This document shows positions 3 through 10,235 of a stretch of 45,690 nt of DNA, in pieces. The translations under genes were made by a program, and so were the position numbers. How positions within the stretch are numbered: the first letter of the stretch is position 1; the number at the start of each line of letters is the position of its first letter. The stretch lies in NCBI GenBank assembly GCA_902530685.1, contig CACAAZ010000010.1, positions 1-45,690 of the forward strand. Direction: 5' to 3'. This DNA is from an uncultured Alphaproteobacteria bacterium (GTDB lineage: Bacteria; Pseudomonadota; Alphaproteobacteria; HIMB59; GCA-002718135). The notes beneath the pieces are model-generated. The model made no database searches. It was not told where the DNA came from and saw only the letters and a list, made by a program, of their open reading frames with translations.

Positions 3-203
3 TTAATAAAACTTGGCCTTAAAGATACATTTGCTCACGGCGGATCTAAACAATATTTAACTAAATACTATGGTTTTGATGCATATGCATTGATTAATTC
101 GATAGAAAAATTTATAGGACAAAAATTAAATATTGAAGAAAAAGATTTAGAAAAAGTAAGAATAGAAAATGTTCATTCTCTTTCTAAAGCTGAAGCTCTT
201 TAA
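3..203 (+). CDS. Transketolase C-terminal subunit (3' end only)
   Basis: This is the last 66 codons of a gene that begins left of the window; the stop is TAA at 201-203. The readable protein starts LIKLGLKDTFAHGGSKQYL and continues with a tyrosine-rich stretch and an amphipathic end. This resembles the C-terminal domain of transketolase small subunits of split or DXS-like type, where a Gly-rich turn precedes a LxKYYGF-type helix. Transketolase moves two-carbon ketol units between sugar phosphates. The BtpA gene starts three bases after the stop, so this gene belongs to the same operon. Split transketolases (separate N and C subunits) are common in sugar operons, including the apulose-4-phosphate pathway. 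The N-terminal subunit would be expected just outside the window. The identification rests on a short fragment. Confidence 0.72.
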   Translation, partial: LIKLGLKDTFAHGGSKQYLTKYYGFDAYALINSIEKFIGQKLNIEEKDLEKVRIENVHSLSKAEAL

Positions 204-206
204 ACT

Positions 207-1022
207 ATGAAAAAAAATTTTTATAAATTATTCAAAACAAAAAAACCAATAATAGCTATGGTACATTTTCCTGCTCTTCCAGGTTCGCCATTATATGATG
301 AGAATAAAGGATTAAATTTTATTTATAAATCAATTGAAGCAGATCTATTAAATTTGCAAAAAGCAGGTGTAGATGCAGTTATGTTTGGCAATGAAAATGA
401 TCGACCTTATGAATTAAGTGTAAATCGAGCCACATTATCAACAATGTCATACATGATCGGAAAACTGTCAGCAAAAATTAATGTTCCTTTTGGTGTTAAT
501 GTTTTGTGGGATCCAATGAGTACAATAGCCTTAGCAGTCTCAACTAATGCTAAATTTGTTCGTGAAATATTTACAGGAACTTATGCATCGGATATGGGAA
601 TATGGAGTCCTAATGCAGGAGAATCAATGCGCTACAGAAATTCTCTTGGCAGAAAAGACATACAAATGTACTATAATATTTCTGCAGAATTTGCTTTTTC
701 CTTAGATAGAAGAACAGTCGCTCAAAGGGCTGAAAGTACAGTTTTTTCATCTATACCCGATGCTGTGTTAGTATCAGGACAAATAACAGGCCAATCAGCT
801 AAATTAGATGAGATTAAAGAAGTACATAAAGTGATACCAAATACCCCCGTCCTAGCTAACACTGGTGTAAATATAAATAATGTCGAAGAAATTCTAAAAG
901 TAACTGATGGTGTTATAATCGGATCATCATTAAAAGTTAATGGTGATACTTGGAAAAATATAGATTTAAACAGAGCAAAAAAATTTATGACTAAAGTTAA
1001 ATCTATTAGAAAAAATGCCTAA
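207..1022 (+). CDS. BtpA/SgcQ family TIM-barrel protein
   Basis: A 271-residue protein with the family-defining N-terminus: a strand followed by MVHFPALPGSP (about residues 17-28), then a DAVMFGNENDRP segment and the C-terminal GVIIGSSLK phosphate-binding-type loop of a TIM barrel. BtpA was named for its role in photosystem I stability in cyanobacteria. In heterotrophs the family (SgcQ in E. coli) sits in sugar operons and its reaction is not established. The gene begins 3 bases after the transketolase stop and its last 8 bases overlap the M42 peptidase gene, so it is probably translationally coupled. The family call is secure; the chemistry is unknown. A sugar-phosphate aldolase- or hydrolase-like role is inference from fold and context. 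Confidence 0.88.
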   Translation: MKKNFYKLFKTKKPIIAMVHFPALPGSPLYDENKGLNFIYKSIEADLLNLQKAGVDAVMFGNENDRPYELSVNRATLSTMSYMIGKLSAKINVPFGVNVLWDPMSTIALAVSTNAKFVREIFTGTYASDMGIWSPNAGESMRYRNSLGRKDIQMYYNISAEFAFSLDRRTVAQRAESTVFSSIPDAVLVSGQITGQSAKLDEIKEVHKVIPNTPVLANTGVNINNVEEILKVTDGVIIGSSLKVNGDTWKNIDLNRAKKFMTKVKSIRKNA

Positions 1023-2118
1023 CACAAAGGAAGTCAATTCATTATGTAAAACGCTAGAGGAATTAGTATTAATTTCTGGTCTATCTGGTTATGAAACTAA
1101 TGTAAAAAATTATCTTTCCAAACAATTAAAAAATAAATCACTTAAATCTAATAGTGATGTCTTAGGTAACTTAATTTGCACAATTAAAGGAGATGAAAGA
1201 CTCCCCTCTATCATCCTATTTGCCCATATGGATCAACTGGGTTTTGTTGTAAAAAAAATAGAAGATGATGGTTTTATACGTTTTGAAAGAGTTGGTGGTA
1301 TTCCTGAAAAAGCCCTTACGTCTCAGGATATTGTAATTGTTAATAATAAAAATGAATTAATTCAGGGCATAATTGCCAATAAATCACATCATGCTACTCA
1401 AATAGATGAAAAATATACAGTTACTAGAATTAAAAATTTATATATTGATGCAGGTTTTAAAAATAAAAAAGATGTTTTAAAGAATGGTGTAAATATTGGA
1501 AGTCCAGTTACATACGCACCATATTATAAAACCTTATCAAATAACAATGTTTGTGGTTCTTCCATAGATGATAGGGCAGGTTGTGCAGTAATTTTGAGTG
1601 TTGCTGACTCTCTATTCCAAATTAAAAATAAACCTACAATTCATATCGTTTTTTCTGTTCAAGAAGAGTTTAATTTAAGAGGAGTTTTACCTGTAATCAA
1701 TAGTTTAAAGCCAGATATAGCAATTCAAGTTGATCTAACATTAACATCAGATACTCCTGACATGAAAGGTTCAAGTGACATTTTTTTAGGATCAGGTCCT
1801 TGTATAAGTTTATTTTCATTTCATGGAAGAGGAACATTAAACGGAGTTATACCTCATCCATCATTAGTAGAAATATTTGAAAAAGCTGCTAAAGCAAAGA
1901 AAATTAACTTACAAAGGAGTGCGGCTTCTGGCATATTAACAGATTCTTCATATGTACAATTTGCAAATAATGGAATTGCAACTATTGATATAGGTTTTCC
2001 TATGCGTTATTCACATTCTTCAAGAGAAGTTTGTAATTTAAATGATCTTATTGATTTAAAAAATCTTATCATAACTGCTATAACTAAAGTTGATAAAAAT
2101 TTTAAACTTACAAGGTAG
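1015..2118 (+). CDS. M42 family metallopeptidase (FrvX/SgcX-like)
   Basis: A 367-residue protein of the M42 (glutamyl aminopeptidase / 'endoglucanase M') family, which are di-metal hydrolases. The expected ligands are visible in order: H71 in AHMDQLG, D185 in IDDRAGCA, the general-base pair E217-E218 in SVQEEFNLRG, D240 in QVDLT and H334 in RYSHSSRE. All metal and catalytic positions are kept, so an active enzyme is likely. M42 members called FrvX and SgcX lie in E. coli sugar operons of unknown purpose. The overlap with the BtpA gene (8 bases) and the 6-base gap to the kinase make a shared pathway likely, for example removal of an acyl or aminoacyl group from a sugar derivative (inference). 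Confidence 0.9.
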   Translation: MPNTKEVNSLCKTLEELVLISGLSGYETNVKNYLSKQLKNKSLKSNSDVLGNLICTIKGDERLPSIILFAHMDQLGFVVKKIEDDGFIRFERVGGIPEKALTSQDIVIVNNKNELIQGIIANKSHHATQIDEKYTVTRIKNLYIDAGFKNKKDVLKNGVNIGSPVTYAPYYKTLSNNNVCGSSIDDRAGCAVILSVADSLFQIKNKPTIHIVFSVQEEFNLRGVLPVINSLKPDIAIQVDLTLTSDTPDMKGSSDIFLGSGPCISLFSFHGRGTLNGVIPHPSLVEIFEKAAKAKKINLQRSAASGILTDSSYVQFANNGIATIDIGFPMRYSHSSREVCNLNDLIDLKNLIITAITKVDKNFKLTR

Positions 2119-2124
2119 TTATTT

Positions 2125-3627
2125 ATGTTAGAAAAATATTTTCTTGGGATAGACATTGGCACATATGAAACAAAGGGTGTTATTGTAAATAAAAATGGAG
2201 AAATAATTTCTCAAGCAGCAAGAAAACATGAAATGATTGTTCCACAAAGTGGGTGGGCTGAACACAGGCCAGTTGAGGATTGGTGGGGTGATTTCACTTA
2301 TGTATGTAATAAATTAATTAAAGACTCAAAATGTAATCCAAAAGATATTCTTGCTGTATCAGCTAGCACTATTGGACCTTGTATGCTGCCTTTAGATAAA
2401 GAAGGTGAGCCCTTGATGAACGCAGTATTATATGGTGTTGATACTAGAGCGCATAAAGAAATTGAATTGCTAAATTCATCTATTGGTGAAGAAAATATTA
2501 TGAAATTTAATGGCAATGTTTTAACATCACAACAAGTAGGCCCTAAAATTTTATGGTTAAAAAATAATAGACCAGAAATATATGCTAAAACAAGTAAGAT
2601 TGTTAATGGAGCAGGATTTATAAATTATAAATTAACTGGAAATTATACAATCGATCATTTCTCTGCGGCATTCGTAAGTCCTCTCTATGATATAAATAAG
2701 CAAGATTGGAGTGATGAATTAAATGATGGAATTATAGATATAAGCAAATTACCAAAGTTAGTTTGGACAAATGAAATTATTGGTAAGATTTCAAAATCAG
2801 CTGCGTCACAGACAGGTTTAGCAGAGGGCACAACAGTTACTTCTGGTACAATTGATGCTGCTGCAGAAGCGATTAGTGTGGGTGTTTTTAGTGCTGGCGA
2901 TATGATGATGATGTACGGATCTACCATGTTTTATATCTTAGTTACTGATAAAATTTTATCTGATAAAAGACTTTGGTATTCACCATGGCTTTTCAAGGGT
3001 GAACACTGTTCAATGGGAGGTCTTGCAACTAGTGGAACTTTAACTCATTGGTTTAAAAATAATTTTGCTAGAGAGTTGAGTGGGGACGACATATTTATAA
3101 AGCTTGCACAAGAGGCTGAAAAATCGCCTCCTGGTTCAAAAGGTATAGTTTTCCTACCATACTTTTCTGGAGAGCGAACTCCAATTCATGATACAAATGC
3201 AAAAGGAACTTTCTTTGGTTTAGATCTAACTCATAATAGGGCAGATATGTATAGATCTATATTTGAAGGAATAGCATATGGGACAAACCATGTGTTTGAC
3301 GTTTTTAAAGAATTAAACGCATCACCAAAAAACTTATTTAGTGTTGGTGGAGGTACAAAGAATAAAATATGGTCACATACAACTTCTGATATCATTGGTT
3401 TAAATCAAATCTTAAGAAAAAAAACCATTGGAGCTTCTTATGGTGATGCTTTTCTTTCAGCTTGCACAATTGGAGAATTAAATAAGAATGATTTCAATAA
3501 GTGGAATGAAATTGAGTATGAAATTAATGCAAATCTAGAGCATAAACAACTTTACGATAAGGGATATGAAGTATTTAGAGATCTGTATGAAAATACAAAG
3601 CATCTTATGAAAAAATTAAATACCTAA
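2125..3627 (+). CDS. FGGY family carbohydrate kinase (xylulokinase-like)
   Basis: A 500-residue protein of typical FGGY length. The N-terminal ATPase lobe opens with GIDIGTYETKGVIV (about residues 7-20). The middle carries the family signature around GTIDAAAEAISVGVFSAGD, and the C-terminal lobe has the adenosine-binding SVGGGTKNKIW motif. FGGY kinases phosphorylate ketoses and polyols (xylulose, ribulose, apulose, glycerol, erythritol). The specificity cannot be read from sequence. It is the last gene of the transketolase-BtpA-M42 run. Its stop codon overlaps the stop of the convergent ABC permease by 4 bases (CTAA read on both strands). A cytoplasmic kinase here implies that the imported sugar or its breakdown product is phosphorylated before the transketolase step. 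Confidence 0.9.
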   Translation: MLEKYFLGIDIGTYETKGVIVNKNGEIISQAARKHEMIVPQSGWAEHRPVEDWWGDFTYVCNKLIKDSKCNPKDILAVSASTIGPCMLPLDKEGEPLMNAVLYGVDTRAHKEIELLNSSIGEENIMKFNGNVLTSQQVGPKILWLKNNRPEIYAKTSKIVNGAGFINYKLTGNYTIDHFSAAFVSPLYDINKQDWSDELNDGIIDISKLPKLVWTNEIIGKISKSAASQTGLAEGTTVTSGTIDAAAEAISVGVFSAGDMMMMYGSTMFYILVTDKILSDKRLWYSPWLFKGEHCSMGGLATSGTLTHWFKNNFARELSGDDIFIKLAQEAEKSPPGSKGIVFLPYFSGERTPIHDTNAKGTFFGLDLTHNRADMYRSIFEGIAYGTNHVFDVFKELNASPKNLFSVGGGTKNKIWSHTTSDIIGLNQILRKKTIGASYGDAFLSACTIGELNKNDFNKWNEIEYEINANLEHKQLYDKGYEVFRDLYENTKHLMKKLNT

Positions 3628-4520
3628 CCTTTAATTGCTCCCGCCGCCATCCCTTTAACAATATAACGTTCTAAGAAAATAGCTACAACAATTAATGGAA
3701 AACATAATGCCAATGAAATTGCTGCCATGTTCCACCATTTAATACTTTGAGATGAAATTTGTGAAGCTACCATAACAGGCATTGTTTTTGCATCAGTACT
3801 TGTAATTAGTGCTGCTAAAAAGTATTCATTCCAACAAAGTATTAAACACAAAATAAAAGCACTGGCAATTCCTGGTAAAACAATTGGAAAAACTACTCTA
3901 AAAAAGCTTACCCATACACTGGCTCCATCTACCAGGGCAGCCTCTTCTAATTCAATTGGTACAGCATTAAATTGATCTCTCATTATCCAGATTACAATTG
4001 GAAGTACGGTTAAAGTATAAATCATTATCATACCAATATGTGTGTCAAGAAGATCTAGTTCACGATATAAAACTAGTAATGGAAGAGCAAGAACTACTGG
4101 AGGTAAAATCAATTGTGATAAAAAGAAAAATGAAATATCTGGATTTCGCATAAAGCCAAATTTATAGTTAAATCTACTCAACCCGTATGCAGCAAAAGAA
4201 CCAAGAATGACCGCTAAAGCTGAAGCACTTGATGAAATTAATGCTGTGTTAAAAAATCTTGCAAAAAATTCCTCTCTTGGATTTGACTCAGTAAAAATTG
4301 TATCAGGAGAAAGTCCAAGATTTTTCCATCCCTTCCAAGCAGGTTCAAAATCTACCCACGGTATCAAAAGACCCTGTGTTACACTTGCAGCAGTCTTAAA
4401 TGATGTTGTTGCAGTCCAATAAATTGGAAAAAGACAAATAAATGTCCAAAATAAAAGAATTCCATAAATCAGTATTTTTTCAACTAGATTGTTGTTCATT
4501 ATGCTGCTCTCTGAAGCCAT
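3624..4520 (-). CDS. Carbohydrate ABC transporter permease, MalG type
   Basis: A 298-residue inner-membrane protein with about six hydrophobic segments and the cytoplasmic EAA loop that docks the ATPase (EEAALVDGASVWVSFFRVVF, about residues 194-213). This is the second permease of a CUT1 sugar importer (MalG/UgpE family). The start overlaps the end of the MalF-type permease gene by 22 bases, so the two are translationally coupled. The 3' end overlaps the convergent kinase gene by 4 bases. No ATP-binding subunit follows. The C-terminal KGMAAGAIKG ending is typical of MalG proteins. Confidence 0.93.
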   Translation of the reverse strand: MASESSIMNNNLVEKILIYGILLFWTFICLFPIYWTATTSFKTAASVTQGLLIPWVDFEPAWKGWKNLGLSPDTIFTESNPREEFFARFFNTALISSSASALAVILGSFAAYGLSRFNYKFGFMRNPDISFFFLSQLILPPVVLALPLLVLYRELDLLDTHIGMIMIYTLTVLPIVIWIMRDQFNAVPIELEEAALVDGASVWVSFFRVVFPIVLPGIASAFILCLILCWNEYFLAALITSTDAKTMPVMVASQISSQSIKWWNMAAISLALCFPLIVVAIFLERYIVKGMAAGAIKG

Positions 4521-5617
4521 CTATTAACAAATCGTATTAAAATAGTCATAAATATAATAATCAATACTAAATAGACAAAAGAGAGAAGAGTTCCATATCC
4601 AACATTAGATCTATCTCTATACTCTCTTACTATAAAACTCGTGACACTATCAGTTGCTCCACCAGGACCTCCAGCAGTTACAATAATTATAATATCTGCA
4701 AGTTTTAACTTAAAAATAATTCTTATAACCAGTGTTGTTAAAGACACTGGCAGCATTATTGGAAATATTATATTTTTAAACATTGTCCATTTATTTGCAC
4801 CATCAACTTTTGCTGCTTCTAACACTTCTTTTGGCAATGCTTGTAAACCTGCTAATAACATAATGATCATAAGTGGAATAAATGTCCAAGCATCCATGCA
4901 CATCATCGTTAGTCTTGCAATTTCAGGATTACTAAAAAAAGTTGGAGTATCCCATCCAAGCCACCTCGCAAAGTTAGCAACAGGTCCAAATCTCTGTTCT
5001 AACATTGATTTTCCTACCATCCAGCTTACAGCTACTGGACTCAACATTAAGGGTATTAAAAAAGCTATTCTAAAAAACTTTCTCCCCCTAATTTGTGTAT
5101 TCAATAAAAGAGCCAATAAAAATGCAATTACAAACTCAACGAGTACAGCAAGAATATAATAAATCATATTCTTTAGTGAGTTCCAATAATAGGGATCTGC
5201 AAGCATTTGATAGAAATTATCTAATCCATTAAACTTTCGTCCATCTATTGAACTTAAATTCCAATCACTGAATGAAATATATAATCCAAATAAAATTGGA
5301 AAAATAACAATAGAAATTATAAACATAACAGCTGGAAATACAAATAGGTTCCTTTTACCTCTTTCTCCGTAAATTAAGACTCTAGAGTAACCAATTGCAA
5401 CAGCCCATAAGATATAAGCATATAGGAGGGGTCTCCAATTAGAAAAACCAAAATTAATTTTTTCAAAAGTATATAGTCCTTGAACTGTACCAATTATGAT
5501 CATTAACATAAATGATGCCCAAACAATAAGTTTACCAGTTCTGATAGTTTTAGGATTTACACTTGATTGCGATACTACGTATAAAGGATCACGTTCAACT
5601 ATTTTAATTTCATTCAT
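4499..5617 (-). CDS. Carbohydrate ABC transporter permease, MalF type
   Basis: A 372-residue inner-membrane protein with two N-terminal hydrophobic segments before the main permease core and an EAA loop (PKEVLEAAKVDGANKWTMFK). This is the partner permease (MalF/UgpA family) of the downstream MalG-type protein. A VTAGGPGGATDSVTSFIV segment near the end matches the conserved GGP region of MalF homologues. The gene lies 71 bases after the solute-binding protein gene, and an 11-bp perfect stem-loop sits in that gap. It is followed with a 22-base overlap by the second permease. Substrate specificity is set mostly by the binding protein and is unknown. Confidence 0.93.
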   Translation of the reverse strand: MNEIKIVERDPLYVVSQSSVNPKTIRTGKLIVWASFMLMIIIGTVQGLYTFEKINFGFSNWRPLLYAYILWAVAIGYSRVLIYGERGKRNLFVFPAVMFIISIVIFPILFGLYISFSDWNLSSIDGRKFNGLDNFYQMLADPYYWNSLKNMIYYILAVLVEFVIAFLLALLLNTQIRGRKFFRIAFLIPLMLSPVAVSWMVGKSMLEQRFGPVANFARWLGWDTPTFFSNPEIARLTMMCMDAWTFIPLMIIMLLAGLQALPKEVLEAAKVDGANKWTMFKNIIFPIMLPVSLTTLVIRIIFKLKLADIIIIVTAGGPGGATDSVTSFIVREYRDRSNVGYGTLLSFVYLVLIIIFMTILIRFVNRWLQRAA

Positions 5618-5648
5618 TATTTTTAAGAAATCATCCTAATACAATAAA

Positions 5649-5676
5649 TCTAGCGACTTAAAAGAAAGTCGCTAGA
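5649..5676 (-). promoter_or_regulatory. Intercistronic stem-loop between binding protein and permease genes
   Basis: A perfect 11-bp inverted repeat: TCTAGCGACTT at 5649-5659 and AAGTCGCTAGA at 5666-5676, around a 6-base loop. It is unusually GC-rich for this window and lies 13 bases past the binding-protein stop, 32 bases before the permease start. No clean T-run follows on the minus strand (ATTTATTGT), so it is more likely an RNA-stabilising or partial-termination hairpin than a strong terminator. Such hairpins commonly give high binding-protein and low permease expression, as in malE-malF. Confidence 0.8.
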
Positions 5677-5688
5677 GTAATAATTAAA

Positions 5689-7356
5689 TTACATACCTAA
5701 AGAAGCTTTATATAGCTTAATTTGGTTTTCTCTACCAATTTGGTCTGTAATATCATCCCAAGCTTTTGCAATATTATCTGCTCCAGTTTGAGCATCATAT
5801 TGTCCAGCATATATTTTTGATAATTCGTCTTCGGCAATACTATAATATTGGAAGATACCTGGTATACGTGGTTCAATTGCAGCATTCGGATGGTTATATG
5901 AGTCAGCTTCTGATGCTAAATAATCAGACGCGAAAGCTTCAGTGTAACCAGCCCCAGTCCACTCATCAATATTGAAATGACTGTTTCTGTAAGGCTGGAA
6001 ACCTGATGGATACATTGACATCCATAATGATAGATCTTTTCCACCAATATGAGCACATGCAGACCATGCAGCTTTCTTTTTAGCTGAGTCATCATCAACT
6101 GTTTTCATACAATATAATCCCCAACCAATGTATGCCATGTTTGGAGCATAGTTAGGACCACTTGGAAGAGTTTCCCATGAACCTGTTTGCCAGTTATAAA
6201 CATCATCAGAACCAGGTAGAATATCAAATCCAACGTTACCTTGAACAAGAGATTCATCAGACGTATTAGCATTTGATCCAACATCTCCCCACCAAGCACA
6301 CATTGAACCTGTCCCTGCTAAGAATTGACTGAAACCTGTAACACCTGGATCAGCATTAATCTGATCTGGTGGTTGAGCATCTTTTCTATCAAGAACATCT
6401 TGAATTGCTCTAACCCATGCAGGATTATTTACCATTGGTTTCATTGTTTCTGGTTCAAATAAGAATGCAGGACTGCTTGGGTGTTTACCATAAGCAGTAG
6501 CAATACTTCCAAGATAATAAAATGCAAATCCACCCCAACCTTTTTGAACATCAAGATATCCATAAGCAGGGAAACCAGCATGTGTTTTACCTTTTAAGAA
6601 GTTAGTAACTTCTGTAACTTTTTGCCATGTAGTTGGAACCTCCCAATTACCTGAATGACCTTCATCTTTCCAAGCTTTAGCTAACTCTTCATTTTCGAAG
6701 TAATCAGTTCTATAGTTGAAGTTATGACAATCACCATCAATCGAAATACGGTATGTTTTTCCTTCCCAAGTTCCAACTGGAGCTTGTAAGTATCCAACAT
6801 AATCACCTAGATCAATTTGATCAGCAACCCAACCTGGCATCTCGGAAAGTAATTTCTTACCACAAAGATCTCCTTCATATGGAGCTCCAGATTGAACAAT
6901 ATCAAAGTCAACAGTACCTGTTGCAATTGATTGTTGAAGTCTTGCATTATAATCAGCTTGTGCTAAGTCAATCCAATTAATTTTTGCACCTGTATACTTC
7001 TCCCAAGGTTTTAAGAAACCTCTGTGAAGCATGTTATGAAGATTCAAACTGTCTAAACCTAAGAAATTAAGCTCAACACCTTTAAATTCACCTTCTTTTA
7101 CTCTTTCTTTAGTTCCACCTAGGCACATTTCGCCAACTTTTTGCCAGTCAGCATCGCCAGGTGAGCCTACACCGACTCCAGGAATTTTAAGAATAGCTTT
7201 TCTAAGTTCTGAATGACCATCAGCAAAAGCACTTGTTGCTACTGATGATAATCCACCACTCATAGCTGCTATCGCACCAGCAGATGCAGCTCCTTTTACA
7301 AAGCTACGTCTATTAATCGCTTTCTTGATAGCGTATTCATATAGTGATTTTTTCAT
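5689..7356 (-). CDS. Extracellular solute-binding protein with Tat signal
   Basis: A 555-residue periplasmic binding protein of the COG1653 sugar class, larger than the usual 400-450. A twin-arginine signal is visible: NRRSFVK (residues 15-21), a hydrophobic alanine/glycine segment, then a probable cleavage after SAFA at residue 45. The mature part has the class I features of CUT1 binding proteins (PWEKYTGAKINW, a DIVQSGAPY segment, many Trp/Tyr residues suited to sugar stacking). It has a strong Shine-Dalgarno and its own promoter region, and is followed by two permease genes. The ligand is probably a carbohydrate or polyol, which cannot be named. Tat export implies cytoplasmic folding before secretion. 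Confidence 0.92.
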   Translation of the reverse strand: MKKSLYEYAIKKAINRRSFVKGAASAGAIAAMSGGLSSVATSAFADGHSELRKAILKIPGVGVGSPGDADWQKVGEMCLGGTKERVKEGEFKGVELNFLGLDSLNLHNMLHRGFLKPWEKYTGAKINWIDLAQADYNARLQQSIATGTVDFDIVQSGAPYEGDLCGKKLLSEMPGWVADQIDLGDYVGYLQAPVGTWEGKTYRISIDGDCHNFNYRTDYFENEELAKAWKDEGHSGNWEVPTTWQKVTEVTNFLKGKTHAGFPAYGYLDVQKGWGGFAFYYLGSIATAYGKHPSSPAFLFEPETMKPMVNNPAWVRAIQDVLDRKDAQPPDQINADPGVTGFSQFLAGTGSMCAWWGDVGSNANTSDESLVQGNVGFDILPGSDDVYNWQTGSWETLPSGPNYAPNMAYIGWGLYCMKTVDDDSAKKKAAWSACAHIGGKDLSLWMSMYPSGFQPYRNSHFNIDEWTGAGYTEAFASDYLASEADSYNHPNAAIEPRIPGIFQYYSIAEDELSKIYAGQYDAQTGADNIAKAWDDITDQIGRENQIKLYKASLGM

Positions 7357-7360
7357 TATA

Positions 7361-7367
7361 TCCTCCC
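7361..7367 (-). promoter_or_regulatory. Strong ribosome binding site of the solute-binding protein
   Basis: On the minus strand GGGAGGA stands 4-5 bases upstream of the ATG at 7356. It is one of the few near-consensus Shine-Dalgarno sequences in the window, consistent with the high synthesis expected of a periplasmic binding protein. Confidence 0.8.
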
Positions 7368-7390
7368 TATGAAAATTATAATAATTAAGT

Positions 7391-7420
7391 TTTATAAATA
7401 TAAGATTGGTAAGGCAACAA
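7391..7420 (-). promoter_or_regulatory. Candidate promoter of the binding-protein operon
   Basis: Minus strand: -35-like TTGTTG (7420-7415), 18-base spacer, -10-like TATAAA (7396-7391), which would give a leader of about 28 bases. The 102-base divergent gap 7357-7458 also must hold the promoter of the isomerase gene on the other strand. Assigned by eye; AT-rich sequence makes chance matches easy. Confidence 0.4.
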
Positions 7421-7458
7421 GAAAAACATTAAAAAGAGAGTTATTTTTGGTAATAAAC

Positions 7459-8424
7459 ATGCTTAAAAACAAGTTCGCAACAAGACTTAATTCTTTCAAA
7501 TCTAATTGGAATTCTCCACAAAGACCAACTGTCAGGGATTTAATTGAAAGAGCATCAAATGCAAAAGGTTTAACGCATGTTGATCTTAATTTTCCTGATC
7601 ACATTGAGCCTTCGCTTAAAGATATTGCTAAAATTACAAGTGATTGTGGATTAAGTATAAATGGTCTTGCTATGAGGTACTACAACAATCCTGCTTTTAA
7701 ATTAGGAGCATTCACAAATCCAAATAAAAAAGTTCGACAGGAAGCAATTGATTTAACTAAAAAAGCAATAGATGATTTAAGAGAAATTAATTCAAATTTA
7801 TTAACTGTTTGGCTAGGTCAGGATGGTTTTGATTACGGGTTTCAAGTTGATTATAAAAAAATTTGGTATGATGAAATTCAAGCTATTAAAGAAATTGCAG
7901 AATATGACAAAGAATGTTTTATAAGTATTGAATACAAACCTAATGAACCACGAGCTTATTCATTACTATCTAACTTAGGAACAACTTTACTAGCAATCAA
8001 AGAAATAAATTTAGATAATGTTGGAGTTACTATAGATTTTGCCCATATTTTATATTCTAATGAACAACCAGCACTAGTTGCAGCATTAATAGACAAGCAC
8101 TCAAAGATTTTAGGTTTACATTTAAATGATGGTTATGGAAAAAGAGATGATGGTTTAATGGTAGGTTCCGTTCATCAATTAGCTACAATTGAATTACTCT
8201 ATTATGTTACAAAAACAAATTATGATGGACCAATTTACTTTGATACTTTCCCAGATACAACAAATATGGACCCAGTAAAAGAATGTGAATTAAATATTGA
8301 AACTGTAAAAAAACAATTAAAATTAGTTGATAAACTTTTATTGAATAACGAATTAACTACAGCTATTGAAAATCAAGACTCTATTACTTCTCATAGAATA
8401 TTTAATAGTATTTTATATCAATAA
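7459..8424 (+). CDS. Sugar isomerase/epimerase-like TIM barrel (AP endonuclease 2 family)
   Basis: A 321-residue protein of the xylose-isomerase-like TIM barrel superfamily. Visible are GLTHVDLNFPDH near the start, FISIEYKPNEPR (metal-ligand Glu strand), VGVTIDFAHILY (Asp/His strand) and GLHLNDGYGKRDDG (the His-x-Asn-Asp metal site). These positions fit a divalent-metal sugar isomerase or epimerase. An upstream in-frame ATG at 7369 would add 30 Lys/Ile-rich residues and start 13 bases from the divergent gene, so the ATG at 7459 is preferred. The next kinase gene begins one base after the stop, so the two are co-expressed. It probably converts the imported sugar to the ketose used by a kinase (inference). 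Confidence 0.83.
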   Translation: MLKNKFATRLNSFKSNWNSPQRPTVRDLIERASNAKGLTHVDLNFPDHIEPSLKDIAKITSDCGLSINGLAMRYYNNPAFKLGAFTNPNKKVRQEAIDLTKKAIDDLREINSNLLTVWLGQDGFDYGFQVDYKKIWYDEIQAIKEIAEYDKECFISIEYKPNEPRAYSLLSNLGTTLLAIKEINLDNVGVTIDFAHILYSNEQPALVAALIDKHSKILGLHLNDGYGKRDDGLMVGSVHQLATIELLYYVTKTNYDGPIYFDTFPDTTNMDPVKECELNIETVKKQLKLVDKLLLNNELTTAIENQDSITSHRIFNSILYQ

Positions 8425-8425
8425 A

Positions 8426-9274
8426 ATGTTTTCAAAGAACATTGTTGTCGTTGGTAGTTTACACTACGATATTTTCATAGAGTCAGATAAAATTCCACAA
8501 GTAGGAGAAACTGTTCTTGGAAAAAAATGGTATCCTAAATTGGGAGGAAAGGGTGCAAATCAAGCTGCTGCACTTATTAAAGAGAACATCAATGTAAATT
8601 TTGTTAGTGCTGTTGGTAGTGATGATTTTGCAAGTTATCTAATGAATCAATTAAGTAAAAATAATATTTCAGATAAATTTTTATTAAAAACTGCTGGTAC
8701 ATCTGGGATGAGTGTAGCTATTTCTAATAAAAGCGGGAATTACAGTGCAATTGTCATTTCAGGAGCAAACTTAGAAATTTCAGAAAAAATATTAACCGAT
8801 GATAATCTATGGAAAAATTGCTCATTTTTAATGATTCAAAATGAAATCGAAGAAAAGATAAATATTAGAGCTGCTATAGAGGCAAAAAAAAGAAATATAA
8901 AAGTTTTCTTAAATGCAGCACCTGCTAAAAAAATCAATTATGAGCTATTCAATCTAGTTGATATATTACTTGTGAATGAAATTGAGTCCCAACAACTTTT
9001 AGATACAAAAAGCACAGATTTTAAAAGACTAGCAGAAGAATTATCAAATTATGTATCTAGAATAATTATAACCTTAGGTGACAAAGGTGTTGTTTACTTT
9101 GAAAAAAATAAAAAAGTTGATCATATTAATGCGCATTCTGTAGATGTAAAAAGTGCGCATGGAGCTGGTGATTATTTTGCTGGAAAATTTATTTCTAATT
9201 TTATTGAAACTAATGACTTTGAAGACTCAATTAAAACTGCTAACAAGAAAACATCAGAATTTATATCGTCTTAA
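8426..9274 (+). CDS. PfkB-family carbohydrate kinase, short C-terminus
   Basis: A 282-residue ribokinase-like protein. The start used is the ATG one base after the isomerase stop; a longer frame begins inside that gene and adds a poorly conserved hydrophobic piece. Motifs are GSLHYDIFIESDKIP, the GGKGANQAAAL substrate/ATP signature 1, LNAAPAKK, and SAHGAGDYFAGKF with the catalytic GAGD Asp. It ends about 20 residues earlier than the next kinase, so the C-terminal strand that normally follows the GAGD helix and helps form the monovalent-cation site is missing. It is probably still an active sugar kinase, but the substrate is unknown. It is a diverged paralogue of its downstream neighbour. Confidence 0.87.
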   Translation: MFSKNIVVVGSLHYDIFIESDKIPQVGETVLGKKWYPKLGGKGANQAAALIKENINVNFVSAVGSDDFASYLMNQLSKNNISDKFLLKTAGTSGMSVAISNKSGNYSAIVISGANLEISEKILTDDNLWKNCSFLMIQNEIEEKINIRAAIEAKKRNIKVFLNAAPAKKINYELFNLVDILLVNEIESQQLLDTKSTDFKRLAEELSNYVSRIIITLGDKGVVYFEKNKKVDHINAHSVDVKSAHGAGDYFAGKFISNFIETNDFEDSIKTANKKTSEFISS

Positions 9275-9320
9275 TGAGAATTAGGTTTACCAATTAAATA
9301 TTTATATTAGGATAGTTTTA

Positions 9321-10235
9321 ATGAATAAATTATCAATACTAGGGATTTTTGTTGCAGATTTAGCATTTTTTGGAAAAATACCTAAAGTTGGAGAGACAAT
9401 TTTAGGTCAAGATTTTGTTGTTGGTCCCGGAGGCAAAGGGTCTAATCAATCTGTTGCTGCAGGCAAAGCTGGTGCATCGATTGATTTTATTACAAAAGTT
9501 GGTGATGATGATTATGGGAAGATGGCTTTTCGTATTTATAAAGAAACAAATGTTGGATCAGATTTTGTTTATGTAAGTAAAGAACATAACACAGGTGTTG
9601 CTGCTATTTTACTTAACAAGGATACAGGAGAGAATGCTATTTCAGTTGTGCCAGGTGCTGCAGGTGCCTTAACAATCGAAGATATTGATAATGCAAAAGA
9701 AGTTATAACAAATTCATCAATTTTTTTAACACAGTTAGAGGCCCCAATGGATGTTGTCGTTCATGCATTAAAAATTGCAAAGGAAAATAATGTAACAACA
9801 ATTCTTAATCCTGCTCCAGCTGCCAAACTTGATCAATTTGTATTTCCATTAATCGATTATTTTACACCAAATGAGTCAGAGGCTAGTTTTTATGTATCTG
9901 GAGATATTGCAAATAAAGATGATGCGGAACAATACGGACAAGAATTTCTTAATCTTGGTGTTAAAAACTTATTAATTACTCTTGGCGATCAGGGTGTTTA
10001 TTTTCAAAATGATAAGGAAAAATATTTTGAACCAGCTTTGGATCTAGGATCCAAGGTTATTGATACTTCTGGTGCAGGAGATGCTTTTTCTGGAGCTTTT
10101 GCGACTGCTCTTTGTGAGGAAAAATCAATTCCTGATGCAATCAAATTTGCTAATGCTTTTGCTGGTATTTCTACCACACGAATTGGTACAGCTAATTCCA
10201 TGCCTTCTCGTGAGGAAATTGAAAAAATTCTATAA
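9321..10235 (+). CDS. rbsK: Ribokinase (PfkB family)
   Basis: A 304-residue full-length ribokinase-type protein: LGIFVADLAFFG start, GPGGKGSNQSVAAGKAGA signature 1 (about residues 36-53), ILNPAPAAKL, ITLGDQGVYF, and signature 2 DTSGAGDAFSGAFATAL with catalytic Asp. The C-terminus has the TANSMPSREEI segment typical of ribokinases. It is expected to phosphorylate ribose or a related sugar at the terminal hydroxyl in the cytoplasm. It lies 46 bases after its shorter paralogue, with an AGGATAG-like ribosome site. Family certain, ribose specificity likely but not proven. Confidence 0.88.
   Translation: MNKLSILGIFVADLAFFGKIPKVGETILGQDFVVGPGGKGSNQSVAAGKAGASIDFITKVGDDDYGKMAFRIYKETNVGSDFVYVSKEHNTGVAAILLNKDTGENAISVVPGAAGALTIEDIDNAKEVITNSSIFLTQLEAPMDVVVHALKIAKENNVTTILNPAPAAKLDQFVFPLIDYFTPNESEASFYVSGDIANKDDAEQYGQEFLNLGVKNLLITLGDQGVYFQNDKEKYFEPALDLGSKVIDTSGAGDAFSGAFATALCEEKSIPDAIKFANAFAGISTTRIGTANSMPSREEIEKIL

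Follow-up and report, generated by a model that had tools for sequence, protein, structure and literature searches.

The window, the whole stretch of 45,690 nucleotides that was analysed, begins with a locus of a marine bacterium that carries sugar-uptake and sugar-breakdown genes and occupies positions 3–9274 at the start of contig C10 (Table 1). Profile scores and coordinates bore out the gene families that the first-pass annotation had placed together here, with one correction: more than one PfkB kinase had been counted within these limits, and only PfkB1 lies inside, PfkB2 following just beyond. The reading frames of btpA and the M42 gene overlap by 8 bases, and homologues place the start of the isomerase-like barrel at about 7459, not at 7369. 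From btpA onward the same gene order is repeated in five other genomes of the genus (two of these stretches stop within the PfkB2 gene and one within the isomerase gene), which excludes a chance arrangement; transketolase genes are present in four of the five and absent from the other (G014/L023).

Table 1 Features of the sugar-uptake and breakdown locus and its immediate flank.
Feature	Position	Strand	Family evidence and remarks
Transketolase C subunit, 3′ end, 66 residues	3..200	+	Truncated at the contig start; optional within the locus
BtpA/SgcQ family protein, predicted phosphate-binding-type TIM barrel	207..1022	+	PF03437, TIGR00259
SgcX-type M42 metallo-hydrolase, ligands intact	1015..2118	+	PF05343; in a clade with E. 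coli SgcX
FGGY sugar kinase, xylulokinase nearest but below the XylB cut-off	2125..3627	+	TIGR01312
CUT1 ABC permease, MalG/GlcU-like	3624..4520	-	PF00528; NF040932 under cut-off
CUT1 ABC permease, UgpA/MalF-like	4499..5617	-	PF00528; NF007852 under cut-off
Extracellular solute-binding protein (SBP_bac_1), 555 residues, twin-arginine motif	5689..7356	-	PF01547
Xylose-isomerase-like TIM barrel (AP_endonuc_2), probable sugar isomerase/epimerase	7459..8424	+	PF01261; 3ktc best solved relative
PfkB1, PfkB-family sugar kinase, divergent ribokinase-like	8426..9274	+	PF00294
PfkB2, PfkB-family kinase, ribokinase-like	9321..10235	+	TIGR02152; also in the relatives' cluster; beyond 3–9274

The 66-residue transketolase piece matched no Pfam or NCBIfam family by itself and is 91% identical to residues 269–334 of the transketolase C subunit of a congener (L022). 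In the same genome the 4,889-base contig C28 stops inside a transketolase N subunit, at residue 178. From this end and the gene order in congeners, the region upstream of the locus, across a contig gap of about 1.2 kb, very likely encodes GpsA, DeoC, a 786-residue aldehyde dehydrogenase, an RbsD/FucU protein and the transketolase N subunit. DeoC and the aldehyde dehydrogenase were considered as parts of the locus and set aside: the dehydrogenase scores >700 bits in 20 of the 25 congeneric genomes searched, most of them free of a BtpA locus, so both are probably general neighbours. Genes for the two proteins are both found in one distant type I locus (L151).

The BtpA and M42 proteins

The BtpA protein belongs to its family by scores of 256 bits against PF03437 (cut-off 30) and 260.6 bits against TIGR00259 (cut-off 153.4), and scores 166.5 bits against the photosystem I biogenesis equivalog NF045918, below the cut-off of 400. 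No relative of solved structure was found by sequence, and profile searches gave weak local matches, mostly to tryptophan synthase alpha chains. The structure model (pLDDT 91.7) has fold matches that include HisF, TrpC, ThiE, KDPG aldolase and GGGPS, and phosphate-binding barrels are prominent among them. Reading the reaction from the fold was tried and rejected, because barrels of many functions tie, designed cages included. E63, D102, D129, N157, S190 and T219 are present in the BtpA proteins of types I and II and of sgc; at the same six positions type III BtpA carries H, N, N, D, T and S, with H63 in 12 of 13 (27 rows of type I, 17 of type II, 3 of sgc and 13 of type III were compared, and the very long branches L120 and L141 were left out). 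Both branches were kept in the BtpA tree, whose bootstrap had not settled. In the more distant type III loci BtpA is found, mostly with a PfkB kinase, beside M20 or ArgE/DapE amidohydrolases or TenA.

The M42 protein scored 259.4 bits against PF05343 (cut-off 23.2) and reached no NCBIfam equivalog cut-off. SgcX-type M42 proteins, E. coli SgcX among them, form a single clade with support of 99/99. We aligned 37 of them, a sample drawn from 27 of 79 loci, the present locus, the genome draws described below and sgc, and including one (G205/L144) for which no link to btpA was observed. All 37 share H71, D73, D185, E217, E218, D240 and H334; by positions known from M42 structures, we take H71, D185, E217, E218, D240 and H334 to be the metal and base residues. 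This set is complete in the protein of the locus, in keeping with the first-pass annotation, which had described its ligands as intact. Around these residues the subfamily departs from other M42 proteins. The basic residues R92 and R272 are found in 37 of 37 and K81 and R89 in 36 of 37, whereas among ten other M42 proteins R92, R272 and K81 do not occur and R89 occurs once. In place of the pocket motif QEEVG all 37 have QEE(F/Y)N, and a GRGTL stretch is likewise in every one of them and in none of the ten others. Such family-specific basic residues beside intact ligands, together with the altered QEEVG motif, would suit a charged substrate.

The same intact ligands also favour another explanation, in which the locus scavenges glycated peptides or Amadori compounds: the M42 protein would be a genuine aminopeptidase acting on peptides or amino acids that bear a sugar, which it would trim, while the kinase would phosphorylate the sugar part and BtpA would be a deglycase. 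Two other E. coli M42 proteins, YpdE and FrvX, adjoin PTS genes, and YpdE lies beside the aminopeptidase YpdF; the amidohydrolase or TenA neighbours of type III BtpA point the same way, as does the response of sgc, whose iModulon activity is reported, in the part of PMC13343008 available, to rise 16- to 25-fold on nitrogen-containing carbon sources. We nevertheless consider this explanation unlikely, as the QEE(F/Y)N and GRGTL changes run through the whole SgcX-type set, the importers belong to sugar-type families, and the active-site set of type III BtpA differs.

Co-occurrence of the two genes and the core of the locus

Two overlapping genome draws not selected for M42 (397 Pseudomonadota and 288 Alphaproteobacteria) were searched, at most five or six candidates per genome being scored and matches listed at E values up to 1e-30; the M42 profile was made from BtpA-linked M42 proteins, so that the score gap is widened by design. 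SgcX-type M42 genes were found in seven genomes besides the source genome, all seven of which have BtpA; in six the gene lies <2 kb from btpA, and the seventh stands at a contig end. Among the matches listed, neither draw held an SgcX-type M42 in a genome lacking BtpA. The pair thus co-occurs outside sgc, as had been proposed. The first-pass annotation had named a co-occurrence no higher than chance outside sgc as grounds for giving up its idea; the idea came through this check, in sharper form. The dependence is one-sided: an M42 gene is near 6 of 34 sampled BtpA genes and none was seen nearby for the other 28 (one at a contig end and a few on short stretches). Of the dedicated enzyme pair put forward by the first-pass annotation, the M42 half stands, being dedicated to BtpA, and the BtpA half does not, because BtpA occurs more broadly; its more general partner is a sugar kinase. 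Nor is M42 required for the BtpA reaction, since most sampled BtpA loci are without it, including that of Shinella, whose BtpA is 61% identical to the BtpA studied here.

Among the best 80 of 577 loci of BtpA relatives, a set biased to the type of the query for which the two draws are the fairer test, tblastn found an M42 gene in 79 and an FGGY kinase gene in 78. The M42 start lies <200 bases from btpA in 66 loci; the distance is about 1 kb in 12 others and 7 kb in the remaining one. By transporter the 80 loci divide into 60 with CUT1, 12 with CUT2 and 8 with other systems (L095 was misfiled as CUT1 through weak permease matches, its own arrangement being DeoR/CUT2). The pair recurs with unrelated transporters, as first claimed. 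In the 12 DeoR/CUT2 loci FGGY and M42 are present throughout and XylI, PfkB1, RbsD and transketolase in none, which defines the minimal core; the transketolase, isomerase and PfkB genes are optional. Two loci depart from the core: in L036 an ABC importer, BtpA and M42 are present but FGGY is unmatched within 20 kb, and in L040 an importer, BtpA and FGGY are present but M42 is missing. An importer, BtpA and a dedicated SgcX-type M42 form the conserved core common to the present locus and E. coli sgc.

The sgc operons of E. coli, Salmonella and genome G535 combine M42, BtpA and PTS genes, and their stretches hold no FGGY match or annotation. The shared core is therefore a transporter, phosphorylation, BtpA and M42, with the transporter drawn from three unrelated kinds. 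The FGGY kinase goes with ABC importers wherever an importer is visible and is absent from sgc, in which phosphorylation falls to the PTS, a pattern that suggests a phosphorylated substrate for both BtpA and M42. The two genes could instead be mere inherited neighbours with unrelated roles, given that a common alphaproteobacterial arrangement is ancestral to most of the loci; their persistence through three gene orders and three transporters, together with the confinement of SgcX-type M42 to genomes with BtpA among the matches listed in both draws, makes this hardly credible.

Kinases, binding protein and optional genes

The FGGY kinase scored 327.6 bits against the xylulokinase (XylB) model TIGR01312, under its cut-off of 380.25, and its nearest solved structures are 3ifr (an FGGY kinase) and then 2itm (xylulose kinase). 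Against the ribokinase model TIGR02152 (cut-off 299.65) PfkB1 reached 210.6 bits, and PfkB2, at 299.6 bits, fell short by 0.05; in many other loci PfkB2 comes after an RbsD-type gene. The binding protein carries an N-terminal twin-arginine motif, NRRSFVKG, consistent with the Tat export first suggested for it, and the arginine pair is kept in at least 90% of a 28-sequence alignment, 24 members of which are more distant homologues at 65–75% identity. Cultured relatives such as Ruegeria and Devosia have binding proteins in this identity range. The protein has no solved relative, even by profile; the fold of its model (pLDDT 74.7) is nearest to sugar binders of the CUT1 type, many of which match it about equally, so that assigning a ligand from sequence or model was given up.

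The isomerase-like barrel bears on a reading in terms of D-apiose or apulose, in which the isomerase, FGGY kinase and split transketolase would form the pathway and BtpA and M42 would be accessory. Its best solved relative by far (profile E 7e-70) is 3ktc, which we take to be the D-apiose isomerase (ApsI) of Pectobacterium, and both the split transketolase and the FGGY kinase are at hand. Over 435 residues, on the other hand, the kinase shares 19% identity with AplK, the D-apulose kinase of E. coli, and the transketolase halves of congener L022 are 30% and 28% identical to AptA and AptB. Transketolase was matched in 4 of the best 80 loci (by tblastn, some loci ending early), and in three of the seven loci closest to this one (L030, L033 and L034) RbsD and BtpA have no transketolase between them. 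Apulose catabolism, which the first-pass annotation had seen a resemblance to, was dismissed as the principal reading on the strength of the kinase identity and the rarity of transketolase, and we regard the D-apiose/apulose pathway as very improbable. The available part of PMC13001218 describes apsI as the gene for D-apiose isomerase in Pectobacterium.

Further genes in other families of the locus bring in an L-fucose or D-threo-aldose pathway, with a mutarotase, an aldose 1-dehydrogenase and a lactonase, and with BtpA, M42 and FGGY serving later steps. In 40 of the 80 loci the divergent gene belongs to one protein cluster, whose members are aldo-keto reductases where scanned (L036, L037 and L065); the solved structures closest to the L061 member are L-galactose dehydrogenases. 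A second cluster, in 21 of the 80, matches L-fucono-1,5-lactonase under the cut-off where scanned (L037 and L077), and the RbsD/FucU protein is nearest L-fucose mutarotase, also under the cut-off. Yet neither cluster occurs in the lineage of the present locus (L028–L034) or is annotated in sgc, and among the 12 CUT2 loci the reductase cluster is found in one and the lactonase cluster in none, which leaves such a pathway quite improbable.

Proposed route and comparison with known systems

We propose, with a probability of roughly 0.4, that the locus is an ABC-transporter form of a BtpA/SgcX catabolic module. To our knowledge, no substrate or activity is known for SgcQ-type BtpA, for SgcX or for the FGGY kinase of the locus. 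In the route we envisage, a small derivative of a sugar would enter through the importer and receive a phosphate on its open-chain sugar or polyol moiety, from the FGGY kinase or, during uptake, from the PTS. The M42 hydrolase would then cut an amide bond (an ester or lactone being less likely) of the phosphorylated compound, and BtpA would convert the ketose phosphate so freed, by rearrangement, to a pentose phosphate pathway intermediate. The kinase is placed before the hydrolase by analogy with the PTS case. The rise of sgc iModulon activity on nitrogen-containing carbon sources is an independent hint in favour of this route as well. The transketolase, isomerase barrel, PfkB kinases and RbsD-type mutarotase, and in other families the aldose dehydrogenase and lactonase, may be lineage-specific genes for finishing the product or for use of a second sugar.

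The BtpA and M42 pair probably handles one sugar compound in many bacteria. More tentatively, and with some doubt, BtpA/SgcQ and SgcX-type M42 may form a dedicated two-enzyme route, common to marine alphaproteobacteria and E. coli, for a class of sugar derivatives new as nutrients, in which a kinase or PTS would add the phosphate, a peptidase turned to a new use would cleave an amide or ester and so expose the phosphorylated sugar, and BtpA would carry out a sugar-phosphate reaction new to its family. As the locus is present in several records with marine-plankton titles, dissolved organic matter probably does contain its substrate. In the genomes searched one M42 subfamily occurs only with BtpA, so that the function of both families could be tested in one set of experiments. 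Among the matches listed, literature titles and the opening parts of abstracts gave no description of a BtpA–M42–FGGY locus.

The BtpA of cyanobacterial photosystem I biogenesis is of the same protein family, the present protein falling under its equivalog cut-off. A cyanobacterial BtpA is reported to be required early in tetrapyrrole biosynthesis (Skotnicova et al. 2024, as cited in PMC11433714), a role unlike sugar catabolism; the part of PMC11433714 available names BtpA/SgcQ without giving a reaction. The D-apiose/apulose cluster of E. coli SE15 (aplK, aptA and aptB, as named in the available part of PMC13001218) likewise joins an FGGY kinase to a split transketolase, but has a ribose-type importer, and BtpA and M42 are absent among the genes seen in a stretch that begins inside the cluster. 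Closer are the BtpA–FGGY–SDR–DeoR–CUT1 loci of Thermus, Rhizobium and Shinella, which share the FGGY kinase, the CUT1 importer and a BtpA of 50–61% identity, but in which no M42 was seen, a short-chain dehydrogenase is present and the FGGY kinase is 28–30% identical.

The nearest known system is sgc (sgcXBCQAER) of E. coli and Salmonella, which in E. coli K-12 counts among the carbohydrate operons that still lack an explanation. In the part of the 2026 study available (PMC13343008), growth of sgc mutants was unimpaired on 190 Biolog carbon sources, which shows nothing positive for sgc, and its substrate was again left open. Both systems keep, in one operon, BtpA and M42 homologues (SgcQ 43% and SgcX 36% identical), the M42 proteins in a common clade and the BtpA proteins with common active-site residues. 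They differ in transport and phosphorylation: sgc has a Gat-type PTS (SgcABC) and no annotated FGGY kinase, whereas here ABC permeases and a binding protein stand in its place with an FGGY kinase, and sgcA and sgcC were not among the matches assigned in the 80 loci. The Rpe-like SgcE was found neither in the ten locus proteins scanned nor among those matches (E 1e-6), the upstream part being judged from relatives; conversely, the transketolase, isomerase barrel and PfkB genes of the present locus are not annotated in sgc. The ABC form offers two things that sgc is without: a periplasmic binding protein, open to ligand screening, and a kinase suited to substrate assays.

The locus in the window and its genus

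The window covers bases 1–45690 of contig C10, part of a 1.05-Mb draft genome that is 56% complete. Among relatives that carry a name, the closest have the record titles uncultured Alphaproteobacteria bacterium and MarineAlpha5, and the host presumably belongs to the AEGEAN-169/HIMB59 group. Family assignments confirmed the gene families that the first-pass annotation had named for the locus, where GC content is about 30–35%. The reading frames of BtpA and the M42 peptidase overlap by 8 bases, and the transketolase piece consists of the last 66 residues of the C subunit. On a separate contig of this genome, 4,889 bases long, part of GpsA is followed by DeoC, an aldehyde dehydrogenase, an RbsD/FucU protein and residues 1–178 of the transketolase N subunit; because this gene order is that of the congeners, the gap to the window is estimated at about 1.2 kb. 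No ABC ATPase gene was found within the window cluster (positions 3–10235), and an ATPase match lies in the flanks of 49 of the best 80 of at least 577 loci of BtpA relatives; the permeases may use a shared ATPase encoded elsewhere.

A full-length BtpA of the window kind (E < 1e-150) is present in 6 of the 37 genus genomes examined, host included, most of which are incomplete drafts in which absence is uncertain. As far as the stretches reach, the order in five congeners is RbsD, the transketolase N and C subunits, BtpA, M42, FGGY kinase, permeases and binding protein on the opposite strand, isomerase barrel and PfkB kinases; both transketolase genes are missing from one congener (L023) and, in the set of named loci, from L030, L033 and L034. 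In one genome of a sister family of the same order (L008, G044:C8), an ABC ATPase, a BtpA (48%) and a different FGGY kinase (32%) were observed on a contig that stops inside the FGGY gene, where M42 cannot be judged. A locus of the alphaproteobacterial form, with 69% GC and a BtpA 61% identical, occurs in a record titled Mycobacterium sp. KBS0706 (L099), which may be mislabelled or contaminated, or may reflect transfer of the locus.

Pairing of BtpA with M42

A pattern scan of 84,980 species genomes gave at least 577 confirmed relatives of the window BtpA; for the best 80 of them, M42 and FGGY genes were counted by tblastn. Among these 80 loci, M42 was present in 79 (exception L040) and FGGY at more than 40% identity in 78 (exceptions L036 and L042, the latter on a stretch that stops 704 bases past btpA). 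The distance from the M42 start to the btpA end was below 200 bases in 66 loci, about 1 kb in 12 and 7 kb in one; in the 1-kb locus examined (L071), a BPD_transp_2 permease fills the gap.

Two draws of unselected genomes, 288 Alphaproteobacteria and 397 Pseudomonadota, contained 14 and 21 genomes, respectively, with a PF03437 score above the cut-off; the host was counted in both draws and one further genome was common to both, leaving 34 BtpA genes in 32 other genomes. A script assigned these by gene surroundings to type I (M42 and FGGY; 5 genes), an sgc operon (1), type II (FGGY without M42; 12) and type III (PfkB kinase, M20 or TenA; 10), with 6 unclassified, one of them at a contig end. A profile built from BtpA-linked M42s (A2) gave matches of 430–484 bits in 5 of the 397 and 2 of the 288 genomes, host excluded, and all other matches listed scored at most 181 bits (22 and 1, respectively). 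Six of these seven M42s lie within 2 kb of btpA, where by our estimate a given gene would be expected by chance in roughly 1 in 1000 genomes of such size; for the seventh (G205:C69), the contig ends exactly at the expected btpA place, and G205 has other BtpA genes. The earlier proposal that BtpA and M42 recur together thus held among close loci and from the M42 side but not from the BtpA side, where M42 lies near 6 of the 34 sampled genes. In the genomes searched, the SgcX-type M42, the subfamily of the window and of E. coli SgcX, is dedicated to BtpA.

Residues and lineages of the two proteins

In a tree of 47 M42s, 37 SgcX-type proteins including that of sgc formed one group (support 99/99), apart from E. 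coli FrvX, YpdE and eight M42s encoded on contigs other than that of BtpA or in BtpA-less genomes; several outside branches are long and the order among them is unsure. Compared with these ten, the group keeps all metal ligands, replaces QEEVG by QEE(F/Y)N and carries a GRGTL stretch present in none of the ten; R92 is present in 37/37, and K81 and R89 in 36/37. These features suggest that the pocket has been reshaped to take a substrate that is charged and perhaps phosphorylated. All three E. coli K-12 M42 genes examined (sgcX, ypdE and frvX) have PTS genes as neighbours. This placement suggests that M42 hydrolases and PTS sugars are connected more widely, in a way not yet explained.

BtpA is confidently predicted to be a TIM barrel (mean pLDDT 91.7), and its fold matches include HisF, ThiE, TrpC, KDPG aldolase and GGGPS, which are phosphate-binding barrels. 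Across 65 aligned BtpAs, acidic and polar residues common to types I, II and sgc are replaced in type III, with E120 and E161 kept by 88% in type II; the window BtpA thus matches SgcQ and the FGGY-linked type II proteins in its apparent catalytic residues and differs in them from the PfkB-linked type III. The BtpA tree agrees, with 7 changes of operon type versus 34.5 in shuffles. M42-less Thermus and Shinella loci branch within type I or next to it, which makes loss or gain of M42 during this history probable. A compact DeoR–BtpA–FGGY–SDR–CUT1–isomerase operon without M42, on a plasmid of the thermophile Thermus thermophilus, would be a good source of stable enzymes toward the BtpA reaction.

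The type III lineage (L113, L114, L116, L119, L133–L135, L137 and L138; three measured proteins are 31–33% identical to the window BtpA) lies beside a PfkB kinase and, in many cases, M20 or ArgE/DapE hydrolases or TenA, phosphotriesterase-like and GATase1-like proteins and a ribose-type importer. It looks like another catabolic route, of which we found no description.

Coordinates of related loci and residue replacements in type III BtpA
Feature	Locus or protein	Position	Replacement
Compact operon, T. thermophilus plasmid	L109	8241–16757	
M42/PTS neighbourhood, E. coli K-12	L153	7511–9001	
M42/PTS neighbourhood, E. coli K-12	L154	4856–7824	
Type III replacement	BtpA	E63	H
Type III replacement	BtpA	D102	N
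Type III replacement	BtpA	E120	N
Type III replacement	BtpA	D129	N
Type III replacement	BtpA	N157	D
Type III replacement	BtpA	E161	K

A common core and its comparison with sgc

Accessory genes vary among the best 80 of at least 577 loci: RbsD occurs in 45, the isomerase barrel in 39, the second PfkB kinase in 36, the first in 33 and transketolase in 4. A protein cluster whose three scanned members are aldo-keto reductases is found in 40 of the 80, and a lactonase cluster, presumably of the COG3618 type, in 21. L-galactose dehydrogenases are the nearest solved relatives of the one reductase examined. In two loci the lactonase has a sub-cut-off match to L-fucono-1,5-lactonase, and for one of the two the best solved relative is 4dlf. 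For those families, though not for the window lineage, this hints at an L-fuco- or D-threo-configured aldose.

Titles and abstract openings among the matches listed, with most subscription journals outside this scope, held no description of a BtpA–M42–FGGY locus. Two reports describe broad transport of sugars or other compounds in AEGEAN-169, and the passages covered do not name the window locus (PMC10308909, PMC11366302); neither BtpA nor a peptidase is mentioned in a survey of FGGY kinases (PMC3245297). The proposed likeness to apulose catabolism was not supported; the D-apiose cluster used for comparison is described in PMC13001218. The first-pass observation is confirmed, and its interpretation is partly supported and has become sharper.

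All 12 CUT2-type loci contain BtpA, M42, FGGY and a DeoR-type regulator, whereas the isomerase barrel, PfkB1, RbsD and transketolase were matched in none of them. Common to all forms are an importer, a means of phosphorylation, BtpA and M42, with single exceptions in L036 (without FGGY) and L040 (without M42). In the genomes searched, the pair thus does not depend on the kind of transporter, and phosphorylation is the third element that nearly always goes with it. Many type II loci have a dehydrogenase in place of M42 beside the FGGY kinase and BtpA (short-chain-dehydrogenase match of at least 48% in 8 of the 12 sampled stretches, weak only in 2, none in 2), which suggests that M42 and the dehydrogenase are alternative routes, either of which would make the sugar that kinase and BtpA handle.

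Besides BtpA and M42, the sgc operon encodes a PTS and an Rpe-like protein; it has been termed a PTS for an unknown sugar (PMC5797941). Its mutants had no growth defect on 190 Biolog sources with no substrate reported, and its iModulon activity rose 16- to 25-fold on nitrogen-containing substrates (PMC13343008, PNAS 2026). FGGY accompanies the ABC importers and is missing from sgc, where the PTS phosphorylates on import; the compound therefore probably reaches BtpA and M42 phosphorylated, and these would act after the FGGY kinase in the ABC forms as after the PTS in sgc.
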